Assembly (NCBI GenBank): GCA_022708025.1
Contig: JAKIZM010000004.1
Location: 1-64,000 of the forward strand
Length of the DNA: 64,000 nt
Reading direction: 5' to 3'
Origin: Bacteroidota bacterium
Lineage (GTDB): Bacteria > Bacteroidota > Ignavibacteria > Ignavibacteriales > Ignavibacteriaceae
Below are positions 11,974 to 15,564 of the stretch, piece by piece. The notes under the pieces were generated by a model, which was not told where the DNA came from, ran no database searches, and worked only from the letters and a program-made list of their open reading frames with translations. Position 1 is the first letter of the stretch, and each line of letters opens with the position of its first letter. A program made the position numbers and the translations under genes.

Positions 11974-13266
11974 TTATATTCGCTCAAACTTCCCATCAAT
12001 AAACATTTGATTTTTATTAATTACTCCAACTGATTTACCTGTTAACAATCGTTTATCAAATGGTGTGTTTACTGATTTAGATTTAAATTTTGTTTTATCT
12101 ACTGTCCAGATAGCATCAGGATCAAGAATAGTGAGATTAACGGGTTCACCTTCTTTTACTTGCGGAATACTAATATTTAGTATTTTCCTCGGATTGATTG
12201 ATAGTTTTTCGATTAACTGTTCCAAGTTCAATATTTTTTTCTGAAATAATTCAGTAAAAGCCAAACCAACCTGTGTTTCCAATCCTATTATTCCATTTGG
12301 TGCATATTCAAATTCCATCTCCTTTTCTTCAAGAGAATGAGGAGCATGATCTGACGCAATACAATCTATCGTTCCATCTTTTAATCCGGCAAGAATCTCA
12401 TCAACATCTGCCCTTGTTCTGAGCGGCGGATTCATTTTAACATTTGGATCGTAAGTCTTAACTGCATCATCTGTCAATGTAAAATGATGCGGAGTTACTT
12501 CTGCTGTAACTTTAATTCCTTTTTTCTTTGCATCACGAACCATTTGAACAGATTTCTTTGAACTTATATGTGAAATATGAACTTTTGCATTAGCATACTC
12601 TGCCATTAAAATATCACGCATAACAATCAAGTCTTCAGCAATAGCAGGTATCGGCGGTAAACCAAGTAATGTTGAATTTATACTTTCGTTCATTGCACCG
12701 CCGGCAAGTGTTTCATCTTCACAATGTTCTATAATTGGAAGATCAAACATTCTTGCATATTCCAATGCCCTTTTAAGAATTGATGCCGTTTTAATTGCAA
12801 CTCCGTCATCAGAAAACCCAACAACTCCGGCATCTTTTAATTCAGCCATTGGTGAAAGTATCTCCCCTTTGCGCTCGACAGTTGCGGCACCAATTGGATA
12901 AACATCCACTAAATGTTTTGCTGATTGCTTTTTAATCAGTGTAACAACTTCTGCAGAATCAATTGCCGGTTCAGTATTCGGCATACATGCAATTCCGGTA
13001 AATCCTCCGTTTGCTGCCGCATTACATCCTGTAATAACTGTTTCTTCATCTTCTCTGCCTGGTTCACGTAAATGAACGTGCATATCAAACAAGCCCGGAA
13101 CTAGATATTTGCCTTTTAGTTCCAGAACTTTTGCATCTTTCAGTTCTGCTTCTGTAAGCTTTCCTATCTTTTTATATTTTCCATCTTCAATTAAAACATC
13201 TACATCCTTTTCATTCAACTTCTGATCAGGATTGAGAAGATTTACATTTTTTAATACTAATTTCAT
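11974..13266 (-). CDS. pyrC: Dihydroorotase
   Basis: A 430-residue class I dihydroorotase of the amidohydrolase superfamily that cyclises N-carbamoyl-aspartate to dihydroorotate in de novo pyrimidine synthesis. The metal-binding motif DMHVHLREPG is at residues 61-70, with H63 and H65 as ligands. Further metal and substrate residues appear in IIEHCED (about 180), KVHISHISSKKS (about 235) and ASDHAPHSLEEK (about 308), where the Asp is the catalytic base. The length fits the family. It is the last gene of pyrR-pyrB-pyrC, 21 bases after pyrB, and should be controlled by the PyrR leader upstream of pyrR. Confidence 0.95.
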   Translation of the reverse strand: MKLVLKNVNLLNPDQKLNEKDVDVLIEDGKYKKIGKLTEAELKDAKVLELKGKYLVPGLFDMHVHLREPGREDEETVITGCNAAANGGFTGIACMPNTEPAIDSAEVVTLIKKQSAKHLVDVYPIGAATVERKGEILSPMAELKDAGVVGFSDDGVAIKTASILKRALEYARMFDLPIIEHCEDETLAGGAMNESINSTLLGLPPIPAIAEDLIVMRDILMAEYANAKVHISHISSKKSVQMVRDAKKKGIKVTAEVTPHHFTLTDDAVKTYDPNVKMNPPLRTRADVDEILAGLKDGTIDCIASDHAPHSLEEKEMEFEYAPNGIIGLETQVGLAFTELFQKKILNLEQLIEKLSINPRKILNISIPQVKEGEPVNLTILDPDAIWTVDKTKFKSKSVNTPFDKRLLTGKSVGVINKNQMFIDGKFERI

Positions 13267-13287: not shown

Positions 13288-14208
13288 TTAATTGAGTGTT
13301 CCAAGTAAATAAAGCACAGCCATTCTAACAGCAACTCCATTTGTAACCTGCTGCAAAATAATCTGTGAACTTCCATCGGCAATTTCTGATGATATTTCAA
13401 CTCCACGATTTATAGGACCAGGATGAAGTATTAAAATATCTTTGCCGTTTTTTTCTAAACGATTTCTATCAATTCCAAAATACTGAGAATATTCCCTGAT
13501 AGATGGAAAATATTCTCTCGCTTTCCTTTCAAGTTGTATTCGTAACACATTTAATACATCGTTTTCTTGGATTGCTTCATCAATATTATGAATTACATCT
13601 ACACCAAGCTCATCAAGATATCTTGGAATCATTGTAGAAGGTCCGCAAACAGAAACTTTAGCTCCCATTGTTTTCAATCCATATATATTTGATAAGGCAA
13701 CGCGGCTATGTGCAACATCGCCAACGATACATACTTTTAATCCTTCAAGTTTTCCAAGTTTTTCACGAATCGAATACATATCAAGTAAAGCCTGAGTCGG
13801 GTGTTCGTGAATTCCATCTCCGGCATTTATAACATTCGCATCAGATATTTTTGTAAGCATAAGCGGAACACCTGCTGCAGCGTGTCTTACAACAATCATA
13901 TCTACTTTCATTGCTTCGATATTTTTTACAGTGTCTTTTAATGTTTCTCCTTTGCTGACACTACTACCGGAAACGGAAAAATTTATTGAATCCGCTGACA
14001 ATCTTTTTTCTGCTAACTCAAAAGATATTCTTGTGCGTGTAGAGTTTTCATAAAACAGATTTACTATTGATTTTCCTTGTAGAGTAGGAACTTTTTTTAT
14101 CGGTCTTTCCAGAACCTCTCTGAAAGTTGTTGCAGTATCTAAAATTAACTGTATATCTTCTTTAGGAACATCTTTCATTCCTAGTAAATGACGGTTTGAT
14201 AATGGCAT
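13288..14208 (-). CDS. pyrB: Aspartate carbamoyltransferase catalytic chain
   Basis: A 306-residue enzyme that makes N-carbamoyl-L-aspartate from carbamoyl phosphate and aspartate. The carbamoyl phosphate signature STRTR is at residues 56-60. The substrate loop is seen as SGSSVSKGETLKDT. Other conserved pieces are HPTQALLDMYSI and the C-terminal HPGPINRGVE. No pyrI regulatory chain gene is adjacent, as in Bacillus-type operons where PyrR controls transcription. It starts 5 bases after pyrR stops, so translation is probably coupled. Confidence 0.95.
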   Translation of the reverse strand: MPLSNRHLLGMKDVPKEDIQLILDTATTFREVLERPIKKVPTLQGKSIVNLFYENSTRTRISFELAEKRLSADSINFSVSGSSVSKGETLKDTVKNIEAMKVDMIVVRHAAAGVPLMLTKISDANVINAGDGIHEHPTQALLDMYSIREKLGKLEGLKVCIVGDVAHSRVALSNIYGLKTMGAKVSVCGPSTMIPRYLDELGVDVIHNIDEAIQENDVLNVLRIQLERKAREYFPSIREYSQYFGIDRNRLEKNGKDILILHPGPINRGVEISSEIADGSSQIILQQVTNGVAVRMAVLYLLGTLN

Positions 14209-14213
14209 ATTCT

Positions 14214-14759
14214 TTACTTCTTTTCTGATTCAACAATATAGATGGCATCCTCACCATCAAATTCTTTCATTTTAACTTTTATTTCTTCACTGTGAGATGT
14301 TGGAATGTTTTTACCAACATAATCTGCGCGGATCGGAAGTTCGCGATGTCCGCGATCGATCAAAATACAAAGCTGTATCGAGCTTGGTCTCCCCATATCC
14401 ATAATAGCATTTAACGCTGAGCGAACCGTTCTTCCTGTATAAAGGACATCATCAACAAGAATTATATCCTTTTCATTTATATCGAAAGTAATATTTGAAA
14501 CTGATACTTCCGGTTGTTTTAGTCTTGTTCTGAAATCATCACGATAAAGAGTAACATCCAAAACTCCGAACGGAAGATCACTATTATCTATCTGATGAAT
14601 TTTTACTTTAAGACGCTCAGCTAAAAACTCACCTCTTGTTCGCATTCCCATTAAAACAAGATTATGTGAGCCTTTGTTTTTTTCCAGAATTTCGTGTGCC
14701 ATTCTGGTAAGGATTCTGTCAAATCCTTCTTCATCCAATATTTTTGATTTTATGACCAT
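14214..14759 (-). CDS. pyrR: PyrR pyrimidine operon regulator / uracil phosphoribosyltransferase
   Basis: A protein of 181 residues from ATG at 14759. A TTG two codons further up (14765) is possible but puts the start inside the terminator U-tract. The PRPP-binding motif of phosphoribosyltransferases is [19 protein letters not shown]. The N-terminus [21 protein letters not shown] matches PyrR. In known PyrR proteins UMP binding promotes binding to the mRNA leader, giving termination or translation block, and the protein also has modest UPRT activity. It is first in pyrR-pyrB-pyrC, and a binding loop and terminator lie directly upstream. The AGAGG in the 3' arm of that hairpin is also the best ribosome-binding sequence. 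Confidence 0.93.
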
Positions 14760-14762
14760 ATA

Positions 14763-14798
14763 CAAAAAAGCCTCTTCGGAAAAAAATATCCTCAGAGG
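14763..14798 (-). terminator. Attenuator-type terminator hairpin in the pyr leader
   Basis: On the minus strand CCTCT pairs with AGAGG, then a GA/AG internal mismatch pair, then GGA with TCC around a T-rich loop, followed by CTTTTTT and the pyrR start codon. The 3' arm AGAGG doubles as the likely ribosome-binding site of pyrR. The hairpin could therefore act by termination, by hiding the start, or both. Confidence 0.72.
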
Positions 14799-14832
14799 TT
14801 TACCTTATTTTTATTTTATGTTTAATTTCTTT

Positions 14833-14856
14833 CATCCTTTTCCATCTCACGGGATA
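14833..14856 (-). promoter_or_regulatory. Probable PyrR-binding RNA loop
   Basis: Minus-strand RNA reads UAUCC, then CGUGAGAUGGAAAA, then GGAUG. This is a 5-bp stem (one U-G pair) around a purine-rich loop. It resembles the PyrR-binding consensus CC-x-GUGAG-x-x-G-x-AAAGG known from pyr leaders. It lies upstream of the terminator hairpin in the same leader, in the correct order for PyrR attenuation. GGAAAA in the loop could also pair with UUUUCC in the terminator as an antiterminator. The match is from memory of the consensus. Confidence 0.65.
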
Positions 14857-14971
14857 GATTTAAAGGTTAATTTTATTTGTTCCAAAATTAGAGGTAAAAG
14901 ATTTTAAAGTAAAGAATAATCTAACTGTAATTAAAATTATTTTTATATTTGCCGAGTAAATCTTCTTTTTT

Positions 14972-15046
<75 letters not shown>

Positions 15047-15066
15047 CAAATTAAATTGGTTACAAA

Positions 15067-15564
15067 ATGGCACAAAATCACTCTTTTGATATTGTTTCAG
15101 ATATCGATTTTCAGGAAGTAGATAATGCTGTCAATCAGGCATTAAAGGAAATCACTCAGCGTTACGACCTGAAAGATTCTAAAACTCAAATTGAATTGAA
15201 CAAAAAAGATAAGTTACTTTCAGTTAACACTAAAGATGACTATTCACGCAAAGCTTCAATTGATATTCTTGAATCTAAATTTATTCGAAGAGGCATTTCA
15301 ATTAAAGCTCTAAAGTTTAATGAACCTGAAGCAGCTGCGGGTGGAAGATTAAAACAAACAATTAATCTGCAAAGCGGAATCTCAAAAGACAACGCTAAGA
15401 TCATTACAAAAATGATTAAAGAATCAAAGCTAAAGGTTAATGCACAGATTCAGGATGAACAAATAAGAGTAACTGCACCAAAGATTGATGATTTGCAGGC
15501 AGTAATAAAATTAGTTAAAGAAGCTGAACTGGATTTTCCGACTCAGTTTGTAAATATGAAGTAA
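15067..15564 (+). CDS. yajQ: YajQ family nucleotide-binding protein
   Basis: A 165-residue YajQ/DUF520 protein with the family's usual length and N-terminus (HSFDIVSDIDFQEVDNAVNQ). The conserved core IRVTAPKIDDLQAVIKLVK and the C-terminal LDFPTQFVNMK are also present. Homologues bind nucleotides, and in Xanthomonas a YajQ protein binds cyclic di-GMP and acts with a transcription factor; its role here is not known. It begins about 20 bases after tRNA-Pro and may share its transcript. Confidence 0.93.
   Translation: MAQNHSFDIVSDIDFQEVDNAVNQALKEITQRYDLKDSKTQIELNKKDKLLSVNTKDDYSRKASIDILESKFIRRGISIKALKFNEPEAAAGGRLKQTINLQSGISKDNAKIITKMIKESKLKVNAQIQDEQIRVTAPKIDDLQAVIKLVKEAELDFPTQFVNMK

Follow-up and report, generated by a model that had tools for sequence, protein, structure and literature searches.

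Sequence comparison points to a PyrR-dependent transcription attenuator ahead of the pyrimidine operon of an Ignavibacteriaceae genome, in which a ribosome, rather than an RNA helix, would serve as the antiterminator; we put the probability of this reading at roughly 0.6. The feature was studied in a 64,000-nucleotide stretch of DNA (hereafter, the window), in which it occupies about 14757-14890 of the minus strand, ahead of pyrR-pyrB-pyrC. Its parts follow one another as a likely promoter box TAATTTTG, a hairpin ACCUUUAAAUCUAUCCCGUGAGAUGGAAAAGGA, a leader open reading frame (ORF) AUGAAAGAAAUUAAACAUAAAAUAAAAAUAAGGUAA, a second hairpin CCUCUGAGGAUAUUUUUUUCCGAAGAGG, a U6 tract and the pyrR AUG. 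When UMP is plentiful, PyrR-UMP on the hairpin at 14835-14867 would mask the start region of the 11-codon leader ORF, with the result that no ribosome enters, the hairpin at 14771-14798 forms, and transcription halts at the U-tract ahead of pyrR. When UMP is scarce, PyrR would be off and a ribosome would translate the leader, stopping at the UAA at the base of the 5' arm of the terminator, where its footprint would cover that arm and keep the terminator open; RNA polymerase would then continue into pyrR-pyrB-pyrC, and the Shine-Dalgarno (SD) sequence carried by the terminator's 3' arm would become available to pyrR. Alignment and counting among relatives bring out the candidate PyrR element, the leader ORF, the terminator position and the SD-like arm, from which we infer the events themselves, i.e., PyrR binding, UMP sensing, and the blocking and unblocking of the ribosome. 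If true, the same RNA-binding protein and hairpin would have been linked to two different means of antitermination, a helix of RNA in Firmicutes and a ribosome in the act of translation outside that phylum.

The pyr operon and the predicted PyrR-binding hairpin

The pyrR gene (14214-14759, minus strand) encodes 181 amino acids from an ATG at 14757-14759, although an in-frame TTG at 14765 is a possible alternative start. The protein scored 243.8 bits against the PyrR profile NF003549, over the curated cut-off of 138, and aligned nearly end to end, as a close match, with the solved PyrR proteins in the PDB; its nearest named relatives are from MAGs of Melioribacteraceae, a family within Ignavibacteriales. 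It is followed on the same strand by pyrB, for the catalytic subunit of aspartate carbamoyltransferase (13288-14208; NF002032, 407.7 bits, cut-off 263), and pyrC, for dihydroorotase (11974-13266; TIGR00857, 411 bits, cut-off 279).

The hairpin ACCUUUAAAUCUAUCCCGUGAGAUGGAAAAGGA (14835-14867, minus strand) consists of an upper helix, UCUAUC/GAUGGA, and a lower helix, CCUUU/AAAGG, the 5' arm of the latter being at 14862-14866; CGUGAG and GGAAAAGG are found at 14836-14851 of the same strand. At a relaxed threshold, the Rfam PyrR model RF00515 aligned with it over the whole model (1-115), with UCCCGUGAGAU as the loop. The score of 42.6 bits is below the gathering cut-off of 54 bits, and the Rfam search of the window at gathering thresholds returned two tRNAs and nothing else. 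Nonetheless, the match had an E-value of 7.2e-5 when 261 bases were searched and 2.3e-4 for the whole genome, where it was the sole match at E<=0.001. The loop is of the conserved RF00515 type, the pyr genes follow the element directly, and the genome encodes PyrR. A class-specific model, named R1, was built from a gap-free alignment of thirty 33-nt hairpin copies; on the genome of the window it gave 52.1 bits (E 1.2e-8), a score to be read with the fact that the window sequence was part of the training set. R1 gave one match in this genome at E<=10, and thus no second element was found there.

Covariation was measured in the thirty copies. The lower helix is nearly invariant, while all six upper pairs show two-sided changes in some sequence; overall, 97.8% of the cells pair, 17 two-sided cells were observed against 4.0 in shuffled alignments, and the covariation score was unmatched by any of 500 shuffles. 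The fold of the entire 136-nt leader was unexceptional (z -1.47). A plus-strand match to mir-4889 (20.2 of 90 bits) was dismissed as chance. We consider the presence of a PyrR element near certain, and binding of PyrR to the hairpin is predicted from its likeness to RF00515.

A sequence-only reading of this DNA had already proposed a PyrR-type element and a terminator ahead of pyrR-pyrB-pyrC, and the two model matches (RF00515, 42.6 bits; R1, E 1.2e-8) uphold it, the genome being of the Ignavibacteria type. Its CGUGAG loop also stood, whereas its UAUCC/GGAUG stem must give way to the two helices described above. The feature is indeed present at 14763-14856, where it had been placed, but that extent was too short, since the 5' arm of the lower helix falls outside.

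Distribution of the element in relatives

RF00515 matches were found in 11 of 21 genomes, that of the window included, none being over the cut-off. In a sample of 197 genomes of the class, 63 had a match at E<=0.01 and 5 were over the cut-off, while PyrR itself was found in 106. Within the family, R1 matched 63 of 80 genomes, and within the class 164 of 391. For the analysis of leaders, the DNA upstream of 107 class-sample pyrR loci was combined with that of 7 closer relatives, making 114; a motif search allowing up to two differences located the hairpin in 93 of them, and in 86 of the 107 class-sample pyrR genes. After removal of the 21 leaders without the element, and of 3 that had the element but no recognised PyrR motif, 90 remained. 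The sequence-only reading had named lack of conservation in relatives, or of a match to PyrR elements, as what would speak against it; the element is in fact conserved (86/107), and the RF00515 match is present, though below gathering.

In a wider sample of the phylum, PyrR was found in 149 of 247 genomes and R1 matches in 36, of which 34 belong to the class; the matches in the two genomes outside the class (G325 and G378) lie away from pyrR. Since R1 is tuned to the class, these counts do not prove that the element is absent elsewhere in the phylum. A number of individual matches were rejected. Those of RF00515 at G053, G099, G142, G147, G178 and G191:C43 are U-tract terminators that end unrelated genes; R1 gave them 12.8 bits or less, and five of the genomes have no PyrR, G191:C43 being a second match. 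Weak RF00515 places of a similar kind were also seen in G127 and G201. The R1 matches off pyrR in G102, G378 and G325 are inside or beside unrelated genes. The leaders without a recognisable hairpin (21/114) are L064, L080, L082, L102, L105 and L115 of family f18, L110 of family f11, and L131-L137 and L145-L151 of families f4 and f22; in these four families, the element appears to be lacking while PyrR is retained.

It could be argued that the element of the window is decayed or coincidental, PyrR acting here only as a uracil phosphoribosyltransferase and the leader being unregulated. The sub-threshold RF00515 score would agree with this, as would the 21 of 114 pyrR leaders without the element and, likewise, those genomes from other classes in the phylum sample that have PyrR but no element. 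However, the hairpin is very strongly conserved and covarying, and the frame of the leader ORF is preserved in relatives, which makes decay a highly improbable explanation.

A leader ORF between the hairpin and the terminator

The leader ORF AUGAAAGAAAUUAAACAUAAAAUAAAAAUAAGGUAA (14800-14835, minus strand; 11 codons) abuts the AAGG arm, beginning exactly at the 3' arm of the PyrR hairpin, and ends at the base of the terminator, its UAA being 1 nt before the 5' arm. A single ORF of 11 amino acids in the window proves nothing by itself; the evidence was sought in relatives. Among leaders with a hairpin and a U-tract, an ATG is found at -1 to +12 after the AAGG in 59 of 69, whereas 500 shuffles of the spacer placed one there in 14.0 leaders on average and 25 at most. 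When a stricter terminator finder was used on the 90 leaders with the element and the PyrR motif, the ATG was in place in 68. Frame tests were restricted to leaders in which ATG and hairpin were both present (59 by the looser finder, 57 by the stricter one), and a frame was scored as open if its first stop came no earlier than 8 nt ahead of the terminator arm. In the first set, the ATG frame was open in 51 of 57, as against 22 and 27 for the other two frames and 28.5 for shuffled spacers; counted by genus, 28 were for the ATG frame and 4 against, with 7 ties.

Since the idea of a leader ORF arose from this first set, members of the family that had not been used before were tested. In these held-out leaders, the ATG was present in 37 of 47, and its frame was open in 35 of 36, compared to 13 and 16 for the other frames and 17.3 for shuffles. 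Twenty further leaders of the order behaved similarly (ATG in 18; frame open in 15 of 18, against 6 and 8). Eleven other loci showed no contrast between the frames (5, 3 and 6 of 6 open).

The comparison was then extended to 80 named loci near relatives of PyrR, 68 of which had R1 upstream of pyrR (E<=1) and 12 did not. By their record titles, the 68 were assigned to Firmicutes (36), to Ignavibacteria-like organisms (8) and to others (24); altogether, 91 R1 matches occurred in the named loci, and the 23 downstream of pyrR, all of them in Firmicutes, were excluded. The Firmicutes had the ATG in 14 of 36, and their frames were unbiased (11, 14 and 10 of 14 open). The others, comprising Omnitrophota, Nitrospinota, Zixibacteria, Cloacimonadota and more, had it in 18 of 24, with 16, 8 and 8 of 18 frames open, and the Ignavibacteria-like loci, which include genomes counted before, in 6 of 8, with 4, 1 and 1 of 5 open. 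Retrieval does not explain the difference, since the same procedure of retrieval and scanning was applied to the Firmicutes loci.

It is to be noted that the ATG was not in place in 22 of 90 and 10 of 47 element-bearing leaders, some of which have TTG or GTG instead. A point against the leader-ORF model is that in the genus of the window the ATG adjoins the AAGG, which leaves poor SD spacing. The peptide sequence is not conserved, and hence what can matter is translation as such, not its product. Overall, an ORF that starts at the PyrR hairpin and reaches the terminator recurs in the comparisons, and the leader ORF is, on these sequence counts, very probably a real feature. The sequence-only reading overlooked it; its recognition of a PyrR attenuator survives, but not its manner of switching.

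The position of the leader stop was examined as well. In the genus of the window, it lies at the base of the terminator or a few nucleotides away, with a reach of -6 to 0 in 6 of 6 species. In other leaders it overlaps or approaches pyrR: 24 of 57 have it between -6 and +20 relative to the start of that gene, and eight of the 24 have it at +4, as AUGA.

The terminator and the start of pyrR

The terminator hairpin CCUCUGAGGAUAUUUUUUUCCGAAGAGG (14771-14798, minus strand), of the form CCUCU(GA)GGA...UCC(GA)AGAGG, folds at about -12 kcal/mol ahead of its U6 tract (14764-14769, minus strand), which is also the spacer between the SD and the pyrR start. A strict terminator scan of the window found nothing, as is to be expected of a hairpin that holds a 2x2 internal loop. 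This loop, placed symmetrically between a 5-bp and a 3-bp helix, is a feature of the terminators of the order. Out of 83 order leaders (36 in the first set and 47 held out), 79 gave a hairpin, and 68 had both helices in register; both internal-loop positions were unpaired in 58 of these 68, and in 44 the 3' side reads AA. Covariation is seen in the fifth pair and in the upper pairs, the set spanning 32 genera. A search with the terminator pattern found one copy in the window and a single copy in 15 of 31 genomes, each at the pyrR leader except that of G018. Examples of a conserved purine-rich 2x2 loop among the relatives are L040, L071, L104 and L114.

The AGAGG in the 3' arm is 11 nt from the pyrR ATG, and this arm probably doubles as the pyrR Shine-Dalgarno sequence; the AA on the 3' side of the internal loop may extend it. 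In 41 leaders, no more than 8 nt separate the end of the U-tract from the pyrR start, and in 36 the distance is greater. Of the 41 abutting terminators, 34 carry an SD-like sequence (GGAG, GAGG or AGGA) toward the end of the hairpin, against 12 of the 36 others (Fisher p 1.8e-5), and the ribosome-binding site that the sequence-only reading had assigned to this arm is accordingly plausible.

The same SD-like arms could also serve a mainly translational control, in which the hairpin masks the pyrR SD, PyrR stops translation of the leader, coupling is lost, and termination is minor. The leader stops at or near pyrR in 24 of 57 leaders, with the eight AUGA overlaps, fit such coupling, and so does family f7, where the leader ORF runs up to pyrR. 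However, a U-tract hairpin is retained ahead of pyrR in 67 of 90 leaders, and the leader stop of the window, 40 nt upstream of pyrR, is too far for simple coupling; we therefore regard this account as quite unlikely for the window. The family f7 leaders, seen in genus g37 (L052, L058, L068, L070 and L079), have a leader ORF of 32-38 amino acids up to the pyrR start and no convincing U-tract terminator, which suggests that they are a purely translational version. In a separate observation, genus g40 of family f10 (L084, L094, L109, L124 and L128) has no clear U-tract terminator between the element and pyrR; segments such as CACCUCAC and a downstream UAAAGGC in these leaders show complementarity, by eye, to the PyrR hairpin in its loop and 5' arm, as though an alternative fold precluded it.

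Search for an RNA antiterminator

In a switch of the Bacillus type, the 3' half of the hairpin and the spacer would pair with the 5' arm of the terminator when PyrR is absent, and the ORF would be incidental. The binding hairpin and the terminator are the same as in RF00515, which favors such a switch. For each leader, the duplex between the 3' half of the hairpin and the terminator 5' arm of that leader was compared with duplexes in which the arms were swapped within the same group. In Firmicutes (n=34), own duplexes averaged -14.43 and swapped ones -12.65, and none of 2000 permutations was as good (p < 0.0005). The class (n=65) showed no specificity for its own arms (-9.17 against -9.09; p 0.36), and in the other phyla (n=23) the own arm was no better than the swapped (p 0.85). 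In energy, too, the duplex is weak, with -6.9 kcal/mol in the window and a median of about -7 in the order, compared to -14.6 in Firmicutes.

The permutation test is blind to pairing that is identical in all leaders. Against shuffled arms, p<=0.05 was reached by 8 of 34 leaders of the order, 7 of 46 held-out leaders and 8 of 34 Firmicutes, which is a mild excess of complementarity in the order. This excess, taken with the blind spot, leaves room for a weak RNA antiterminator in the order, one far weaker in energy than that of Firmicutes. Pairing of GGAAAA with UUUUCC of the terminator, put forward in the sequence-only reading as the antiterminator, is not supported, as UUUUCC occurs in the terminator of just 1 of 6 species of the genus. 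Moreover, a Bacillus-type switch would not keep the ORF frame open in three sets of relatives. We thus consider it unlikely, and return to the ribosome as the preferred antiterminator.

Comparison with known PyrR systems

In B. subtilis, PyrR-UMP is described as stabilizing an anti-antiterminator, whereupon the terminator forms, and the conserved loop of the PyrR-binding hairpin is given as of the ARUCCAGAGAGGYU type (PMC7430163); another report lists 211 RF00515 sites in 255 genomes (PMC3766115). The element of the window shares with the B. subtilis attenuators the CCUUU/AAAGG lower helix, the internal loop, the UCC-GNGAG loop of the binding hairpin, the terminator downstream, and the placement ahead of pyrR and pyr genes. 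It differs in its score below gathering, in being the one element of its genome, in that no specific RNA antiterminator was found, in the leader ORF starting from the 3' arm of the hairpin, and in the U-tract that adjoins pyrR.

A parallel may exist in Thermus, where, as reportedly described by Van de Casteele et al. in 1997, the site for PyrR overlaps that at which ribosomes enter a short leader ORF, and translation of the leader is said to prevent the terminator. As far as this description goes, the logic of PyrR site, leader ORF and terminator is the same as proposed for the window, although the phylum is different and the terminator of the window has two further features, the likely SD of pyrR and a conserved internal loop. 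The leader looks like the Thermus scheme in mechanism, and like a sub-threshold relative of RF00515 in sequence. Mycobacteria use PyrR for translational repression, hiding the ribosome-binding site of pyrR itself; the hiding of a ribosome-binding site by PyrR is shared, but the site proposed to be hidden here is that of the leader ORF, with the terminator in between. A literature search that covered titles and abstract openings, and few subscription papers, returned no PyrR with a leader peptide and no PyrR attenuation in Ignavibacteria, which is weak evidence of absence. The regulator is thus an ordinary one in an ordinary place, and it is the switching device that is unlike the textbook one.

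The leader-peptide reading predicts many unannotated leader peptides ahead of pyrR; it also predicts that, unlike in Bacillus, PyrR would exert no control of termination in a ribosome-free reaction. A broader and rather doubtful proposal is that PyrR attenuators outside Firmicutes generally gate ribosome entry on a leader ORF, and that the terminator in Ignavibacteriales has turned into another structured element, carrying the SD of pyrR on its 3' side and a conserved, purine-rich 2x2 internal loop that some factor or the ribosome might recognize.

The probable promoter and its surroundings

A probable -7 promoter box, TAATTTTG (14883-14890, minus strand), is located 24 nt upstream of the CCUUUAA, and the transcript start is expected at about 14876. 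TAnnTTTG is the -7 promoter consensus in Bacteroidota. It was found at -35 to -10 in 16 of 36 leaders of the order, as against 1.0 in shuffles, and in 35 of 66 held-out leaders (2.3 in shuffles); with both sets pooled, 51 of 102 order leaders carry the box, where about 3 are expected from shuffles. Promoters of the sigma-70 type were present in chance number only, and the TAnnTTTG box is the better fit. Divergently from the pyr operon lie, on the plus strand, a tRNA-Pro(CGG) gene (14972-15047) and then a gene of the YajQ family (15067-15564).
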